Origin: a virus
Length of the DNA stretch: 64,000 nucleotides
Direction: 5' to 3' (one strand)
IMG/VR virus record: IMGVR_UViG_3300044712_001937
Span: 267,681-331,680 of that record
Part shown: positions 4,367 through 20,016 of the stretch, in pieces
Layout of the letters: every line of letters begins with the position of its first letter
Position numbering within the stretch: the stretch's first letter is position 1
Translations under genes and position numbers: made by a program
The notes under the pieces: model-generated
Seen by the model: only the letters and a program-made list of their open reading frames with translations
Database searches by the model: none
What the model was told of the DNA's origin: nothing

Positions 4367-4537
4367 TTAATATTTTTTTATAATTTTTTCGAGTTGTTTT
4401 ACAATATCAAGAGTATTGTTATATTCATGAACTAATACAGTATGTGCGTAGTCAGATATTTTATGATTCATTTTAATACTACGAGCAGTATTTTCGTCCA
4501 TTAATTTTTTAATTAATAACTGTATTTCTTGTTTCAT
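4367..4537 (-). CDS. Small helical hypothetical protein, 56 aa
   Basis: Fifty-six codons, all predicted helix, rich in Lys, Asn and Glu. The start overlaps the stop of the next gene upstream as ATGA (4534-4537), and the stop lies 1 nt before the next small ORF begins. That spacing argues for a real gene. No motif is recognised. Confidence 0.55.
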   Translation of the reverse strand: MKQEIQLLIKKLMDENTARSIKMNHKISDYAHTVLVHEYNNTLDIVKQLEKIIKKY

Positions 4538-6772: not shown

Positions 6773-7427
6773 TATTTCTGTATCTTGGAATTTCAAAAAA
6801 TTCTATATATAATTTATAAAAATCAATATTGGAGATTTTGATTTCATTTTCAGTATTTGCAAGTTTCCAACGGATGTAATCAAAGCTTAATTGGTCTCTC
6901 CAACTACTAATTTTTAATTCTTCCCACCATAATTTGTAAAAATGTCTAATTTTTTCATTATTTCTAATGATTCTACCGCCTTGAGAATGTAAACCATATT
7001 TTATTGGAAAACCTTCTTTTAAATATCTTTCTTTCTGATTATCGACAATGTTTTTATATTCAGGAAATCTTTTATTAACTGCATTAAATTCATCATAAAT
7101 ACAAATTCTTCTATCATGATAAGCTAACACAATATCAGTTTCAGGAGTAAGATAATCTAATAAACAATTGAAATCACGTTTAATCACCATACTTGCATCA
7201 ATTTTGACTACAATATCATGATTTAAATATTCATAAAAATGTGTATAAATATATCGAGACAGCCATTTTGGGTCTAAATCACTATCAATTTTAATTATTT
7301 TCCAGAAATTTGAAGTTATATCTTGGTCAGTTATACAATAATAATCCCATTCATTATCCGGTTTAATATCATGATTAGATAACGTAACATCACTACCTGT
7401 TAATGCGCAAAAACAAGCTTTTTTCAT
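6744..7427 (-). CDS. DUF616-type glycosyltransferase, copy 1
   Basis: Resembles the DUF616 (TOD1/MUCI70-like) glycosyltransferase group: WDYYCITDQDI at the N-terminus, a conserved R-Y-x-x-T-H-F, a KIDAS metal-site-like motif at about residue 76, a C-I-Y-D-E motif, a GLHSQGGRIIRNN segment and a WWEE...SWRDQLSFDY helix. It is clearly paralogous to the next gene along most of its length. Its start overlaps the upstream copy's stop (ATGA, 7424-7427), so the pair is co-translated. Acceptor unknown. Confidence 0.8.
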   Translation of the reverse strand: MKKACFCALTGSDVTLSNHDIKPDNEWDYYCITDQDITSNFWKIIKIDSDLDPKWLSRYIYTHFYEYLNHDIVVKIDASMVIKRDFNCLLDYLTPETDIVLAYHDRRICIYDEFNAVNKRFPEYKNIVDNQKERYLKEGFPIKYGLHSQGGRIIRNNEKIRHFYKLWWEELKISSWRDQLSFDYIRWKLANTENEIKISNIDFYKLYIEFFEIPRYRNNENRYSTQR

Positions 7428-8089
7428 ATTATATCATGATTAATATGTTCGTTATACTTAAATATTTTTTTAATTAAATAACGGAAATTAATATTTGCAA
7501 TATTTAATTCGAATTCTGAATTAACAGAAATCCAACGAACAAAATCAAAACTTAATTGGTCTCTCCAGCAATTTGTTGAAATTTCTTCCCACCATAATTC
7601 ATTAAATTTTCTAATTTTTTCATTATTTCTCATAACCCGGATTCCCTGATAATGTAAACCATAATTTTCAGGAAATCCTAATTCACGATATTTTATCATT
7701 TGATTATTAACTAATTCTTTTGAATTTGGAAATTTATTAACAACAGCGATGCTTTCATCATAAATACAATTTCTTTTTTCATGTTTAGCTAATACAATAT
7801 CAATTTCAGGTGTAAGAAAATCTAATAAATAATCTAAATCATTAATAATTATCATATTTGCATCATGCTTTACAATAATATCACAATCAATAAATTTATC
7901 AAAATGAGTCCAAATATACCGGGATTGATATTTTGAATCTAACGCACTATCAATTTTAATTATTTTCCAGAATTTTGAAGTTATATCTTGGTCAGTTATA
8001 CAATAATAATCCCATTCACTATTAACAATGAATGGGAGTTTTAAAGTATCATAATTTCCTATTATAACACAGAAACATGCTTTTTTCAT
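7424..8089 (-). CDS. DUF616-type glycosyltransferase, copy 2
   Basis: Tandem paralogue of the preceding gene, with the same order of motifs: WDYYCITDQDIT, FWKIIKIDS, KHDANMI (the DxD-like site), CIYDE, GLHYQGIRVMRNN and WWEE..CWRDQLSFDF. The two copies differ most at the N-terminal loop and the C-terminal tail. The shared stretches are also similar at DNA level, pointing to a fairly recent duplication. Both probably act with the GT4-like enzyme downstream. Confidence 0.8.
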   Translation of the reverse strand: MKKACFCVIIGNYDTLKLPFIVNSEWDYYCITDQDITSKFWKIIKIDSALDSKYQSRYIWTHFDKFIDCDIIVKHDANMIIINDLDYLLDFLTPEIDIVLAKHEKRNCIYDESIAVVNKFPNSKELVNNQMIKYRELGFPENYGLHYQGIRVMRNNEKIRKFNELWWEEISTNCWRDQLSFDFVRWISVNSEFELNIANINFRYLIKKIFKYNEHINHDII

Positions 8090-8625
8090 AATAATCGAGT
8101 TTGTAAATCTACAATCAAGTTATTTATTGCTTCATTATGAATATTAATATCAATAGGTACTATACTTAATTCATCAGAAGATTTAGCACTATCAATAGCA
8201 TCTTCTTTAGTATATACACCCGCAAAATATTTATATGAAGTATATCCACATGAATTCGGTCGATAATATTCACCTCTTTTTTTGATATAACAATATTGAA
8301 TTGTTGAATCATTTAATATTAACTCTAATTCAGCAATTCGTTTTCTTTCATTTAAAATTTTATTGATTTGAAATAAAGTCTTTTTATCACCTTCAAATTC
8401 ATACCAATCAGCTTCTTCGCATCTTTTAACTGGAATTGTTAAATAAGTTACATTATCATTAGTACTTCTTAATGATAAATATAAACATTGGCAATTATTT
8501 CGACTTAATAGAATTGATTTAGCTTTGTTTAATGAATCCGCATGGCAAATCTCACTTGAGTATTGATGCCCTTCATTTATTCTTGAAAAATCAATTTCAT
8601 ATGCCTTTTGAATTAATTTATACAT
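8086..8625 (-). CDS. Hypothetical protein, 179 aa
   Basis: Start set at ATG 8625 (MYKLIQKAY), which lies 2 nt after the stop of the upstream gene; five more in-frame codons would overlap it. Mixed alpha/beta protein with several Cys and a coiled-coil-like stretch around residues 80-105. No family is recognised. The stop overlaps the glycosyltransferase start as ATGA. Confidence 0.65.
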   Translation of the reverse strand: MYKLIQKAYEIDFSRINEGHQYSSEICHADSLNKAKSILLSRNNCQCLYLSLRSTNDNVTYLTIPVKRCEEADWYEFEGDKKTLFQINKILNERKRIAELELILNDSTIQYCYIKKRGEYYRPNSCGYTSYKYFAGVYTKEDAIDSAKSSDELSIVPIDINIHNEAINNLIVDLQTRLL

Positions 8626-8627
8626 AA

Positions 8628-10070
8628 CTAATATCTCCACCTATTATATGACGTATCGTTATTATCGTCATCAGAACTATATTCATTTGAAATAATCCAG
8701 ATATTTATTCCTATTGAAATTATTATTGCAAATATGAAAATAAACCACATTGCACCTTTAGATGGCTCTACAGTAAGATAATCAAACTGTTTGAAACTTC
8801 TTTTTTCAAATCTATTTAGATTTTTATCAAGAAATAAATACAAATCATTCCATGTTTTTTCAGTTAATACCGGATAATTAAGTGATTTAACTTTTATAGT
8901 AGTATCAACATAAGTAGTATCATTTTTAGGTTTAAAATTATCTACTTTATTTAATTTACTAAGTTTACCTTTATTTATTTTATTCTTTATTGTTTTAAAA
9001 CCTTTATTATTATCATTAACAATTGAAAGAACTGGAGGAATCATTTTCTTAATAACAGTATCTTTATATTGATACATGCCCATTACATAATCTTTTACTT
9101 CGGCAGTTAATATAGCTGTTGGACTCCATGAAAATGCATACGACCACAATATTTCATTACCTTTTTTACCAATACATAATACTAACTCATTTTTATTACC
9201 TCTTACCCAATAATTTTCTTGTTTTAACGCAATATCCATTGGTTTATTCTCATAAACTAAAATCCATAACCGTAAATGGTTGGAAACACCAAATTTTCCA
9301 TTTAAGCGTTTAAAATTTTCTTGAGTATTTTTAGATACACTTCCACCTAAAATTGTAGGATATTCCAATCCATTAGTATTTGAAAACCAACCACCATTTT
9401 TACAATCCGGATATTTAAATAATTTTAAGCTATCAGCATCTGCTTCTGAAACCATTTTAATATTAAAAATTGTTAAATCAGATGCTTTTACTTTATTTAC
9501 ATAAGAATGTAAGCTTGCATATGCTTTTCTTGTATTTTCCTGTTTATTCCATTTAGTTTCGTAAGTATATGAGTATTCACCAACTTCTTTTCCTTGAAAT
9601 TTAGTGCCATCACTACCAGTACATCTATCATCAGAATCGTAATTCTCAACTTTATCTATAACAGTTTTCTTAGTATTAAATTGTCGAACTAATTCATCAT
9701 GTTCTTTTTCAGTAATACTGAATTCTTCATTAAGATTAGTTATCGCCCACCAAGAAGGTGCATGGTCATCTTGATACGAACAATCATAATCGGTACAATG
9801 TTCTTTTCCATCACTATCAGTAGTACAATCTTGGCAAGTTTTATGTACCCATTCATTCCAAGGTTCTTTTTCATATACTGCAACTACAGTTGAACCCCAA
9901 TATTCACTATAACTAACTTTAGCACTTTCTACACAAACTTTAGTAATAGCTATTACAATGGCAACAGATGCAATAGGAATAAAAAATTCCCACCATGTAA
10001 ATTCATGTTTTTTATACAAATAAAAGCCAAATGTGATGGCAAGTGGAATTAATAGTGCTAACCAATACAT
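8628..10070 (-). CDS. Conserved phage membrane protein, 480 aa
   Basis: Two N-terminal membrane helices (about residues 1-16 and 28-46) and one near the C-terminus (about 441-459) flank a large, probably extracytoplasmic, domain. That domain has a Trp/Cys-rich patch (EPWNEWVHKTC, then several CxxC-like pairs up to residue 98), an arrangement I recall from hypothetical proteins of other large phages. Function unknown; an envelope role is likely. A bipartite GTAACA-like/CGTAAT element lies upstream. Confidence 0.7.
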   Translation of the reverse strand: MYWLALLIPLAITFGFYLYKKHEFTWWEFFIPIASVAIVIAITKVCVESAKVSYSEYWGSTVVAVYEKEPWNEWVHKTCQDCTTDSDGKEHCTDYDCSYQDDHAPSWWAITNLNEEFSITEKEHDELVRQFNTKKTVIDKVENYDSDDRCTGSDGTKFQGKEVGEYSYTYETKWNKQENTRKAYASLHSYVNKVKASDLTIFNIKMVSEADADSLKLFKYPDCKNGGWFSNTNGLEYPTILGGSVSKNTQENFKRLNGKFGVSNHLRLWILVYENKPMDIALKQENYWVRGNKNELVLCIGKKGNEILWSYAFSWSPTAILTAEVKDYVMGMYQYKDTVIKKMIPPVLSIVNDNNKGFKTIKNKINKGKLSKLNKVDNFKPKNDTTYVDTTIKVKSLNYPVLTEKTWNDLYLFLDKNLNRFEKRSFKQFDYLTVEPSKGAMWFIFIFAIIISIGINIWIISNEYSSDDDNNDTSYNRWRY

Positions 10071-10095
10071 AATATTATTTTTTTAGTTTGTATTA

Positions 10096-10122
10096 ATTAC
10101 GAATTAATTTACAATATGTTGC
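10096..10122 (-). promoter_or_regulatory. Bipartite element GCAACA-N15-CGTAAT
   Basis: Minus-strand GCAACA box (10117-10122), a 15-nt spacer, then CGTAAT (10096-10101), 25 nt before the 480-aa gene. The same two boxes with 15-16 nt spacing precede genes starting at 11469, 18814 and 21418. Proposed promoter or operator class. Confidence 0.45.
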
Positions 10123-10125
10123 AAA

Positions 10126-10320
10126 TTAATATCTACTTTTTAAACTAAGAATTTGATTTTTTTCATCCCAGAAATCAACTTTAACCTTATTTTCAAGGTC
10201 TGACATTTTTAAATTAAAATCATATTCAGGATTAAAATTCTTGTCTTTTACTGTTTTTCCATTATAATAAACAATATTACTTTTTGTAATTAACTTAATG
10301 ATTGATAGTTTAGTTTCCAT
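10126..10320 (-). CDS. Hypothetical protein, 64 aa
   Basis: Sixty-four codons preceded by a true Shine-Dalgarno sequence (GGAGG, 9-10 nt before the ATG). This is unusual in a window where most genes have only A-rich leaders. The SD sits inside a third, variant copy of an 11-bp repeat. The protein is basic and probably beta-rich; no family is recognised. It is the first gene downstream of the structured RNA and its terminator. Confidence 0.6.
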   Translation of the reverse strand: METKLSIIKLITKSNIVYYNGKTVKDKNFNPEYDFNLKMSDLENKVKVDFWDEKNQILSLKSRY

Positions 10321-10370: not shown

Positions 10371-10399
10371 AAAACCTGTTTTTCATTTATCAAAAACAG
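10371..10399 (-). terminator. Rho-independent-type terminator of the structured RNA
   Basis: Eight-base-pair hairpin CTGTTTTT / AAAAACAG (10376-10383 with 10392-10399, 8-nt loop), followed on the minus strand by G and TTTT. It lies between the structured RNA and the repeat/leader of the 64-aa gene. Confidence 0.6.
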
Positions 10400-10524
10400 A
10401 TTAAAAAGTTAGGTTTAGTTGCGAACTTTCCTTTCAGTGACGACATCATTATTTTTAGTCTTAGCTGGGCAAGTGTTATGTCACAATCTCATTCAGCTTT
10501 GCCCAATACTGAATTGTACATCGA

Positions 10525-10634
10525 GCGTAGAGAGGTATTCGAAACCTCACGTTAGGCAGTAAAATTTTCGGTGCACCTTCTGCCGTAGACCTCTGCTCTT
10601 TCGGGCAGGTACTATACCATTCAGTCATCTACGC
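10525..10634 (-). ncRNA. tRNA-like domain inside the structured RNA
   Basis: Perfect 7-bp acceptor helix (GCGTAGA at 10628-10634 with TCTACGC at 10525-10531), a T-arm with 5-bp stem and TTCGAAT loop (10532-10548), and a D-arm with loop AATGGTA. The middle is not a normal anticodon arm: it is a CTGC/GCAG stem capped by a GAAA tetraloop. A long variable-arm-like helix (GGCAG/CTGCC) follows. Total length is 110 nt and no CCA is encoded. TCTACG also occurs a second time inside, so an alternative fold exists. I read it as a tRNA mimic, not a decoding tRNA. Confidence 0.6.
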
Positions 10635-10853
10635 AATGAGAAGAAGTGTTCCTATTGTGTTATTAGGAAAATCACGTTAACCTAAACTCACTATGGCTAA
10701 GTGATACAGAAATCGTCATCTGTAATGATTCTGACTTATAGATTTAAACACATGAGTAAACGTTTTACGGTCTTAACCGTTTCTAAGGCTTTGGAGCACT
10801 GTTGCCAGCGTATTTATGTGACTAACATCACTATGTCGGAATGCACCCCCTCA

Positions 10854-10882
10854 ATTATACCGCCCTTCAAAACAATTTACAA
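10854..10882 (-). promoter_or_regulatory. Sigma70-like promoter of the structured RNA
   Basis: Minus-strand TTGTAA (10877-10882), a 17-nt spacer and a perfect TATAAT (10854-10859). This predicts a start near 10847. It differs from the TAnnTTTG promoters elsewhere in this window, so the RNA may be regulated separately. Confidence 0.55.
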
Positions 10883-10920
10883 TCTATTTTATCAGCACTT
10901 CTCTTTTATTTTAAAGAACT

Positions 10921-11469
10921 TTAATTTGCAAATGGGTCAGCATTATTATCTTGTCCAGTTTTAAATGCTTCTTCGGTTCTGGCAGATGTAACTAATTTAA
11001 TTTCCAAATCCGGACGACCACCAATAATTAAACTATTCGGAAATGTTGCTTTCATTGTTTTATGTTGCCTATCAATATCAATAAGTTTTTGCTGATTGAA
11101 GGTAAATTCTTTTCGAGTACCTTCAATAGTATTCATTAATTTTGAATATAAGCTGGCATCAAAAGTAGGATTACTTTCTTGTATCCATTTCATTAAAACT
11201 TCTTTTCCACCATTACCATCGTTCTTATAACGACCTTCCATCATTCCGATGTATATTTCTTTGAAACCTTCTTTATATTTATCGGTAACCTTTGCCTGAC
11301 CAGCGATAGTTTTCCAAGTGTTATCAAAGATAACTTCACAATCTTTCTGTACAGCTTTACCTGTTAAATACAATCTTTTTTCATCATTTGAAACACCTAT
11401 TGCCCAAATAATAAGGGAAACAGCAAAGATTGCAATTAAACCAAATATAATCCAACCAGTTTTTTTCAT
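10921..11469 (-). CDS. LemA-like membrane-anchored protein
   Basis: One N-terminal transmembrane helix (residues about 5-25) followed by a helical domain with the LemA-type pattern: a helix with AVQKDCEVIFDNTWKTIAGQA and a long helix ending in LIDIDRQHKTMKATFP. Phage LemA-like proteins of about 180 residues with a YGND/YKND-type loop are familiar to me. The domain would face the periplasm. Function is unknown even for cellular LemA. A bipartite GTAACA/CGTAAT element and a TATATTTG box lie upstream, and the structured RNA lies immediately downstream. Confidence 0.65.
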   Translation of the reverse strand: MKKTGWIIFGLIAIFAVSLIIWAIGVSNDEKRLYLTGKAVQKDCEVIFDNTWKTIAGQAKVTDKYKEGFKEIYIGMMEGRYKNDGNGGKEVLMKWIQESNPTFDASLYSKLMNTIEGTRKEFTFNQQKLIDIDRQHKTMKATFPNSLIIGGRPDLEIKLVTSARTEEAFKTGQDNNADPFAN

Positions 11470-13628: not shown

Positions 13629-14549
13629 TTATATTAATGTTGAAGAATTATTATTATATTTTCTTTTTGAATCAAGACATTTTATAATAAATCCATTTAA
13701 TGATTTTCCATTTTTTGGATTGTGATTAATTATTTTTCCAGAATTAATTTGTTTAAATTCTTTATAGAAAGAATAACCACGATTTTTAAGAAATTTAGAT
13801 ATATTCATTGTCCTAAATTCATTTCCATCGACATCAATAATAATATATCTTAAAGCTCTATGATATTCTAATTCACCCGATTTTATTCTTTCATCGTCTA
13901 TATTCACTCTAAATTTATTACCATCCCAATCTCTAACAACAAGAGTTCCTTTTCTTTGTTTTGATAAATTTTGTTTTGTCTCATTACTCAATTTAATGCC
14001 AACATTAGGATATCTATATTTAGATTTATTTTGATGATATTTATTTTTACTTATTCTTACAAGAGTATTAGTTTCTATATCAATAACACTAACAAAACCA
14101 CAAGTATGCCCAGATAATTTTGGATTATTATCAAACTCATCTTTACTAATTCTTATTTTCATTCCCATTTCATTAATTGCAATCACTTCATTTTTTCTAT
14201 TAAACATAGGATTATTATTTCCTTTAACATTTCTACCAAAACACCCTCCAATACTTGCATAAGATTCATTAAAATATAATTCAGATTCAACAACATTATT
14301 TTCTTTTTGAATACGCAATTCTTCAATTAATGCATCATTTCTATTATTATGATATGATAATATTTTTAATGAAAATAAATATTTATTATTTTTTAATTCA
14401 GATTCAAATATTTTTCTATATCTTTTACTTCTAATAGTACCAAAATATTTTCCAGATAATGCTTTTATTTCCGATGTAGAACCAATATAATATTTAGGTA
14501 AATTATCACCTAAATATGTTGTTAAATATACCACAAATTTATTATTCAT
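13629..14549 (-). CDS. GIY-YIG homing endonuclease with NUMOD-like repeats
   Basis: Freestanding homing endonuclease. The N-terminus carries the GIY-YIG pattern as VVYLTTY ... YYIGSTS with a downstream Lys/Arg-rich region. Residues about 133-143 (GNNNPMFNRK) resemble a NUMOD3 DNA-binding motif, followed by repeated beta segments (VRISKNKY, FRVNIDDE, FRTMNISKF) typical of modular DNA-binding tails. It lies just before DNA ligase, likely its target neighbourhood, with a GTATTTAT motif 15 nt before its ATG. T4 homing endonucleases are often expressed late, which fits. Confidence 0.85.
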   Translation of the reverse strand: MNNKFVVYLTTYLGDNLPKYYIGSTSEIKALSGKYFGTIRSKRYRKIFESELKNNKYLFSLKILSYHNNRNDALIEELRIQKENNVVESELYFNESYASIGGCFGRNVKGNNNPMFNRKNEVIAINEMGMKIRISKDEFDNNPKLSGHTCGFVSVIDIETNTLVRISKNKYHQNKSKYRYPNVGIKLSNETKQNLSKQRKGTLVVRDWDGNKFRVNIDDERIKSGELEYHRALRYIIIDVDGNEFRTMNISKFLKNRGYSFYKEFKQINSGKIINHNPKNGKSLNGFIIKCLDSKRKYNNNSSTLI

Positions 14550-18934: not shown

Positions 18935-19858
18935 TTATAAGTTAAGAACACCTTCGTCATTAGTTGCAACAATACCACCAGTTGTAGTTACTAAAGCAAG
19001 AGCGTTTGTAACCATACCAGCAGTCTTAGAATCAAATTTACTAACTACAGTTTTGATATCAACACCATGTTGAACTGCAATTAATGTTGCAATAGTTGCA
19101 CAAATAGCATGATAATCATCAAGAATAATTAATCTTTCGCCAAGCATTTTTCTCCAATACCCCAAAACATTACTATCATTACAGTACGAACCTTCGTTAA
19201 CATGTATATGATATACGTTATAAAGTCTTTGTGCTTCTGCAAGAAGTTGTTCATCAGACGCATCCTCTGATTGAGGATAACCCATAATATTTTTTAGAGA
19301 TTCAGCATCTAAACAATCCCAAGATTTTTCATCACCAATTGTAAATAAAAAACCTTTTTGATTACGTTTTTCAAAGCAATCAATAGAAGTATGTCTACCT
19401 GCAATAAGCCAAGCAAGAAGATAACTTTCCATATCCTGTCCACCACCACCTTTTTGGATTGCAACTCCTGTTAACCACTTATCAAGTTCTTCAGTACCTG
19501 ATTCAAATTGTCCAACTTGAAGCGGAGTACTAATACAATGATGGTCATTAATTGCACCGAAAAGTACTTGTGGGTCTGGAACACCATTATCAATAATAGT
19601 ATTCATAAGAGTAGGAAGTTCATTTTTAACTAAGTCTTCAGGTATACGACCCATACTTCCAGTATCATCAAGAAATATCATTACAGCTAAAGAATTTGGA
19701 TGAATATCACTATCACGAGATTCCCTAATTGTAAGATTTTTAGGACTCATTTCAACAGTAGCTGTTTTAGAAAAAATAGCATCTGCACTTTTAGTAGCAT
19801 AACTTTTAGACGAACTTAAGTTCGTGTATGCATCATCTGACCAACGGCTATATCCCAT
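18935..19858 (-). CDS. von Willebrand factor A domain protein
   Basis: A vWA domain with an intact MIDAS start (DDTGSMG, residues 64-70), an AINDHHC segment, and a GGGGQDMESYLLAWLIA stretch that fits the second metal-site loop. The C-terminal 60 residues are Ala/Val/Thr-rich. vWA proteins often act as metal-dependent adaptors beside kinases or AAA+ proteins. Here the partners are a 51-aa acidic peptide (3 nt away) and a J-domain/pseudokinase gene. It recalls the TerY-type vWA plus kinase modules, but I infer this only from architecture. Confidence 0.8.
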   Translation of the reverse strand: MGYSRWSDDAYTNLSSSKSYATKSADAIFSKTATVEMSPKNLTIRESRDSDIHPNSLAVMIFLDDTGSMGRIPEDLVKNELPTLMNTIIDNGVPDPQVLFGAINDHHCISTPLQVGQFESGTEELDKWLTGVAIQKGGGGQDMESYLLAWLIAGRHTSIDCFEKRNQKGFLFTIGDEKSWDCLDAESLKNIMGYPQSEDASDEQLLAEAQRLYNVYHIHVNEGSYCNDSNVLGYWRKMLGERLIILDDYHAICATIATLIAVQHGVDIKTVVSKFDSKTAGMVTNALALVTTTGGIVATNDEGVLNL

Positions 19859-19860
19859 GT

Positions 19861-20016
19861 TTATTCAGATTTAGCGTTTTCAGTTTCAGGAGCAGGTTCT
19901 TGAGTTGGTTCAGAAGGAATTGAAGTATCTGAACAATCATCAGTTTTTTCAACTGTTGCTTCTTTTTCATTTTCCAACTCTTCAAAAGACATTGGTGAAT
20001 GTACGTTATTACCCAT
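19861..20016 (-). CDS. Acidic Pro/Glu-rich peptide, 51 aa
   Basis: Fifty-one codons between the J-domain gene and the vWA gene, stopping 2 nt before the vWA start. The sequence is acidic and low complexity (SEPTQEPAPETE), probably disordered. It could be a linker-like adaptor for its neighbours. A Bacteroidota-type promoter lies about 43 nt upstream. Confidence 0.55.
   Translation of the reverse strand: MGNNVHSPMSFEELENEKEATVEKTDDCSDTSIPSEPTQEPAPETENAKSE

Follow-up and report, generated by a model that had tools for sequence, protein, structure and literature searches.

To our knowledge, the large phage RNAs GOLLD and ROOL, which lie in tRNA islands, have no known function. Together with OLE, they form homo-oligomers through kissing loops and other contacts (PMC12286853). 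Smaller phage RNAs act against host defences. Racrs are phage RNA mimics directed against CRISPR (PMC10651486), and phage mimicry of ToxI is cited in that paper as a further precedent. The AbiF toxin, for its part, is bound and neutralised by abiF RNA both in cis and in trans (PMC12373285).

Here we describe a structured RNA of about half a kilobase encoded in a stretch of 64,000 nucleotides, referred to as the window (C1:267681-331680 of the 364.7-kb virus record G000). The RNA is real, and its family is absent from Rfam 15. Covariation among its relatives, drawn from about 20 viral contigs, is strong and bears out the initial annotation of the block as a large, undescribed structured RNA. 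At its fullest, a member of the family consists of four parts: first a boxA-like leader, then an exchangeable 5' domain, next a tRNA-like domain and finally a pseudoknot module of ~110 nt with a tail hairpin. It is a third family with the tRNA-island habit of GOLLD and ROOL, to which it is unrelated. With it come a tRNA mimic that is unable to decode and a conserved RNA module that escapes annotation pipelines within the tRNA arrays of phages. Some members contain a recognisable part, an RNA that acts as antitoxin to a defence toxin; this leads to a concrete and cheaply testable proposal, namely that RNAs of this kind counteract defences under RNA control.

The RNA Locus

The RNA block is bounded by the stop codon at 10921 and the start codon at 10320. 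The features of the locus are as follows.

10921-11469, upstream gene labelled LemA-like, flanking the block
10906-10919, minus strand, boxA-like leader GTTCTTTAAAATAA
10854-10882, minus strand, doubtful sigma70-like promoter TTGTAA-17-TATAAT (10/12 match)
10635-10905, minus strand, variable 5' domain of the window member
10525-10634, minus strand, tRNA-like domain of type 1 (cmscan tRNA match and covariation in nine homologues)
10411-10523, minus strand, conserved 3' pseudoknot module, the family core (covariance model R1)
10376-10399, minus strand, tail hairpin CUGUUUUU-GAUAAAUGA-AAAAACAG followed by a U-rich stretch, probable terminator
10126-10320, small ORF on the other flank

The block had been described as gene-free, and in agreement with this the ORF calls on either strand do not exceed 87 amino acids. 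The name LemA is carried by one phage homologue of the upstream gene only and serves as a label, not an identification; no Pfam family matches this gene above cut-off. The closest relatives of the G000 DNA ligase are from Cellulophaga phages (49%), so its host probably belongs to the Bacteroidota. Elsewhere in the window there is a probable GIY-YIG/NUMOD3 homing endonuclease gene (13632-14549, weak Pfam matches) and a second GC-richer kilobase (19001-20000, 0.343 against a background of ~0.25).

The folding energy of the block is unremarkable (z = -1.34; opposite strand, z = -3.04), so the support for the RNA is covariation rather than stability. The compensated stems and invariant segments argue that the block is RNA. 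A fast scan of the whole window against Rfam 15 reports no RNA above its cut-off because of its fast filters. When the block is scanned alone, the one real match is tRNA (RF00005); matches to snR69 and the HtrA thermometer are noise.

The covariance-model search proposed at the outset for a known identity (GOLLD, ROOL, tmRNA, RNase P and group I intron) gives no match at the locus. The RNase P RNA and group I intron models do not match the block at E<=10, and the tmRNA model (RF00023) matches not here but at G000:C1:111992-112353 (81.9 bits), outside the window. Weak matches to the same model at 104-144 kb of G000, also outside the window, suggest a tRNA array.

GOLLD and ROOL had been named as the nearest known concept. 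The analogy is fair because the present RNA is phage-encoded, combines a conserved 3' part with a variable 5' part and lies near or in tRNA arrays, but it does not extend to membership. GOLLD (RF02032) is likewise large and phage-encoded, with a conserved 3' part, a variable 5' part and tRNAs in or near it (PMC12286853). However, its model finds nothing at E<=10 in the genome of the window, where membership is judged at >150 bits. The positive control for this search, G026, contains a true GOLLD (102724-103131, 275 bits) and the module of the present family (149353-149460) as separate genes, about 46 kb apart. A further mark of GOLLD is its 14-mer RNA cage. ROOL (RF03087) is phage-encoded, ornate and found near tRNA islands; its model, run without a positive control, does not match any of 11 records at E<=10.

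Collection of Relatives

A search of IMG/VR for relatives of the upstream gene led to L002, which has a similar RNA at the equivalent place. The 3' motif common to L002 and the window was used as a pattern to find L040-L044, L047 and L050, and looser patterns gave L052, L053, L218-L222, L226-L229, L231-L234 and L279. All relatives are metagenomic contigs, and part of the alignments was segmented by hand. Duplicates were counted once (e.g. L219/L220/L221/L226/L233 and L229/L231). Matches in L046/L048/L049, L054-L063, L065 and L235-L238, apparently inside genes, were rejected as chance, as were many later ones (e.g. L250, L253 and L262), and L020-L039, mostly weak blastn matches, were set aside. 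A blastn search of the INPHARED phages with the block, the L044 RNA and two modules from tRNA arrays gave no match.

The 3' Pseudoknot Module

The module at 10411-10523 scores 70.7 bits with R1, a model trained on 16 sequences that include the window; the E-value (2.8e-11) is rough, as R1 E-values are. It is the sole R1 match in the G000 record. Each carrier genome searched, most of them also in the training set, has one strong copy, and L279, which lies outside the training set, scores 46.4 bits. The module contains the following elements.

10491-10514, minus strand, helix S1 AUUCAG/CUGAAU, with a pseudoknot strand in its loop
10466-10505, minus strand, H-type pseudoknot PK1, UGGGCAA (10505-10499) with UUGCCCA (10472-10466)
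10437-10484, minus strand, helix P2, GUGAC (10484-10480) with GUCAC (10441-10437)
10411-10432, minus strand, invariant element AGGAAAGUUCGCAACUAAACCU, nearly unchanged in all 16 aligned members

Alignment A1, made of 16 distinct sequences, supports S1, PK1 and P2. Paired cells amount to 91.3% against 78.4% in shuffled alignments and double-change cells to 44 against 12.8, and none of 500 shuffles reaches any of the measures. In controls with slid partners pairing is 30-45%, and counts from hand-segmented sequences agree with the A1 statistics. S1 is compensated in relatives as AACACG/CGUGUU, AAUAUA/UAUAUU and others, and P2 shows changes on both sides in five of six pairs. The H-type pseudoknot noted at first inspection is upheld, since relatives compensate its 4-bp equivalent as UGGC/GCCA, UCGC/GCGA, UAGC/GCUA, GGUC/GACC and AGUC/GACU. 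The element AGGAAAGUUnnCnACUAAACCU is nearly invariant in A1 (n = 16). A lack of covariation in homologues had been named beforehand as one refuting outcome; covariation is found both here and in the tRNA-like domain. The module is thus a conserved RNA structure, and it is conserved across many large phages.

The tRNA-like Domain

The domain 5' of the module has the following parts, all on the minus strand.

10634-10628/10531-10525, acceptor of 7 bp
within 10525-10634, D arm with a 3-bp D stem and a GG loop
10608-10593, anticodon-position hairpin with a non-standard loop
10584-10555, long arm
10570-10577, palindromic loop GGUGCACC of the long arm, GUGCAC in 9/9 domains
10548-10532, T arm with UUCGAAU

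With the block alone, cmscan matches RF00005 at 10524-10634 of the minus strand with 38.9 bits (E 1e-6; gathering score 29). Neither the fast whole-window scan nor ARAGORN reports a tRNA at 10525-10634, and the tRNA model scores relatives L246 and L044 at 22-23 bits. Five stems covary over the nine type-1 domains compared. When partners were swapped 5000 times, the observed pairings of the anticodon-position hairpin, the long arm and the T stem beat every swap; the D stem was reached in 13 swaps and the acceptor in 73. The tRNA mimic with 7-bp acceptor, D loop and T arm that had been read from the window is therefore a conserved RNA structure.

The domain shares the tRNA cloverleaf, including its acceptor, its D and T arms and the nucleotides of the elbow. 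It differs from tRNA in its long arm with the GGUGCACC loop, in being rejected by ARAGORN and in lacking the 7-nt anticodon loop used for decoding. The anticodon arm, said earlier to be abnormal, is a hairpin whose loop departs from the standard: the window has CUGC-CCGAAAGA-GCAG, and the corresponding loops in relatives are short (4 to 5 nt). A second suggestion, that two occurrences of TCTACG allow two folds of the acceptor, fails. L043 keeps the inner TCTACG although its acceptor is GCAUGGA/UCCAUGC, so the motif is not there for an alternative acceptor fold.

GUGCAC occupies all nine long-arm loops while the closing stem varies (GGCAG/CUGCC, GGCAA/UUGCC, GAUGU/ACAUC, GAUAG/CUAUC and GUAUA/UAUAC). 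L279 was fetched using the GUGCAC-loop motif and the other eight were found independently of it; the long arms of L044 and L041/L279 are the least certain. The GGUGCACC loop motif has a single copy in the genome. Because the loop is self-complementary, it suggests an RNA-RNA contact or a protein site, and it may be a kissing loop or a protein-binding site.

The same palindrome is present in tRNA-like elements of L255, L260, L266, L267 and L249 that are related to the domain but distinct from it. The first four (L255 at 4418-4526) are tRNA-Leu-like, and in them an H-type pseudoknot, built around the 14-nt palindrome CUUGGUGCACCAAG, takes the place of the anticodon arm; in L260, which also holds a tmRNA, this pseudoknot pairs CAAGAG/CUCUUG and GGUUUC/GAAACC. 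L249, from a GC-richer phage, has a tRNA-like element at ~2310-2420 whose anticodon loop is odd and whose long arm is capped by a GGUGCACC loop. L004 has ~0.9 kb of gene-free DNA (6820-7745) after a LemA-like gene, with two or three tRNA-like elements in tandem, one of which has two T arms. In L041, a ~0.9-kb insertion (8624-9509) separates the tRNA-like domain from the module. It carries a Cys-rich ORF on the opposite strand and TGCGCTC at both borders, and a similar border sequence follows unrelated genes in L042.

Leader, Promoter and Tail Hairpin

The leader element GTTCTTTGAA, which we take to be a boxA antitermination site, stands at the 5' end of L002, L040, L041, L044, L050, L064, L246 and L279. 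Several relatives have a TAnnTTTG box before it, presumably a promoter of the Bacteroidota type. The sigma70-like site that had been assigned as the RNA's own promoter is at chance level (2.7 such sites are expected in the region under the rules of the scan), lies downstream of the conserved leader in the window and is not seen in the relatives; we regard it as doubtful.

The proposed terminator survives in part. There is a tail hairpin followed by a U-rich stretch, but the hairpin is A-U rich and falls below the rules of the terminator scan. Its loop GAUAAAUGA is constant across L002, L040-L044, L050 and L219, although their stems differ.

The Module in tRNA Arrays

Among true tRNAs, the module is found in L232, L234, L218, L227, L228, L229 and L239. 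It fills the spacer between a Gly and a Glu tRNA in L232 and between a Met and a Glu tRNA in L234. A true, normal tRNA-Ala lies directly 5' of it in L239/L052, and it is followed by an Asp tRNA in L218/L227 and by a Met tRNA in L229. L043, L053 and L219 have the module away from tRNA arrays and with a tail hairpin of its own. No abiF cassette is seen beside the modules in tRNA arrays, so the role of the module itself may be quite different.

The 5' Domain and the abiF Core of Relatives

The 5' domain of the window member has no sequence relative among the loci collected and no match to abiF (RF03085) or any other Rfam family, and the helices ascribed earlier to 10635-10847 are putative. In six relatives (L040, L041, L044, L050, L064 and L246), this domain contains the core of abiF RNA, the antitoxin of AbiF/Abi_2, in the form CGCCUCUnnACnAUGCG with a 3-bp inner stem. 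All six show the abiF pattern of a loop CUCUnnAcnAU, a 3-bp NGC/GCN stem and an outer stem, the last being weak in L064. abiF is the best or near-best sub-threshold Rfam match in the relatives. The segments score 17-22 bits, below the RF03085 cut-off of 37, because their outer parts differ. Unlike known abiF RNAs, they have a different outer stem and context and no accompanying Abi_2 gene: Abi_2 is absent from all 12 carrier records, five of them abiF-bearing. As the window RNA lacks the motif, the strongest functional clue is confined to its relatives.

Bacterial genomes were scanned with a pattern built from the phage RNAs only. This gave 29 loci, about half of which form the abiF hairpin, and Abi_2 is present at nine. 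Since 29 loci are about what chance would give for such a pattern, the evidence lies in the Abi_2 neighbours. A tenth case is the Bacteroidota locus L096/L281, with the same 18-nt core just before Abi_2. In its class, abiF RNAs occur in six of 149 sampled genomes, five with adjacent Abi_2.

L279 shares its leader and 5' start with L050 and has other sequence at the abiF position, where L002 and the window also differ. The 5' domain is thus an exchangeable slot. In L064 (~10000-10310, reverse strand), only the abiF-type 5' domain is kept, with a terminator-like end directly after it.

Proposed Function and Alternatives

From this anatomy we infer a function, tentatively. In our main reading, to which we assign a probability of roughly 0.35, the family is a modular, multi-domain counter-defence decoy RNA. 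It would be produced early or in large amounts from a transcript protected by boxA, and its domains would pass for host RNAs and tie up the binding proteins of those RNAs. A presumed host AbiF would be held inactive by the abiF cassette during the shut-off of host transcription, and the 5' slot of the window member would hold a different cassette. The tRNA-like domain, with elbow and acceptor kept and no usable anticodon, would engage tRNA-binding enzymes rather than decode. It would also, or instead, mark where the domains are cut apart by RNase P and 3' processing. Racr anti-CRISPRs and phage ToxI mimics are likewise phage RNAs that imitate host defence RNAs; the present RNA is far larger, with several domains, and its anti-defence role is a proposal. 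A stronger version, which we regard as rather doubtful, is a new class of phage counter-defence RNA. It would combine swappable host-defence-RNA cassettes, a decoding-dead tRNA mimic dimerising through GUGCAC and a universal pseudoknot module, the cassettes being swapped to match the RNA-controlled toxins of the host.

We hold it about equally likely with the decoy array that the core is a ~110-nt RNA of tRNA arrays, cut out between tRNAs and serving a role related to translation or tRNA. In the lineage of the window, the flanking tRNA would then have decayed to a tRNA-like domain that serves as a cutting mark only, and abiF would be a separate passenger. The position of the module directly between or beside tRNAs in L232, L234, L239/L052, L218/L227 and L229 speaks for this. 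RNase P and the 3'-processing enzymes read the acceptor, T arm and elbow, and exactly these parts are kept in the domain. However, mere punctuation would not require the GUGCAC loop and long arm to be as conserved as they are, and L043, L053 and L219 have versions outside arrays with a tail hairpin of their own.

The invariance of GUGCAC over varying closing stems could also point to a scaffold that would assemble itself through a GUGCAC kissing dimer into RNA-only particles. This would be by analogy with GOLLD and ROOL, which share the habit of lying near tRNA islands and, with OLE, oligomerise through kissing loops and other contacts (PMC12286853). We consider it unlikely, as the locus has no homology to GOLLD or ROOL and a single palindrome would give dimers, not cages.

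A decayed tRNA region with an ordinary terminator and no RNA function would agree with the poor overall folding z-score and with a low-GC phage that has signs of a tRNA array elsewhere in its genome. It is highly improbable given the compensatory changes in both domains across many phages and the invariant AGGAAAGUUnnCnACUAAACC element. A tmRNA, split tmRNA or intron-bearing tRNA, suggested by an insert framed by tRNA-like termini, is extremely improbable in view of the normal D stem and the hairpin at the anticodon position, the tmRNA match at the other site in G000 (111992-112353, 81.9 bits), the lack of intron-family matches in the block and the absence of a conserved tag-like frame among the homologues.

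Orphan abiF Hairpins in Other Viral Contigs

Orphan abiF hairpins are common in viral contigs. In L100-L177, 63 of 78 such sites form an outer stem that is 6 bp or longer, compared with 12.7% when flanks are swapped. Abi_2 is present at only one of the 52 sites with at least 1 kb of downstream sequence. Orphan viral abiF hairpins could be a widespread RNA strategy against AbiF, and one such hairpin, in a cyanophage, is already in the literature (PMC12197685).
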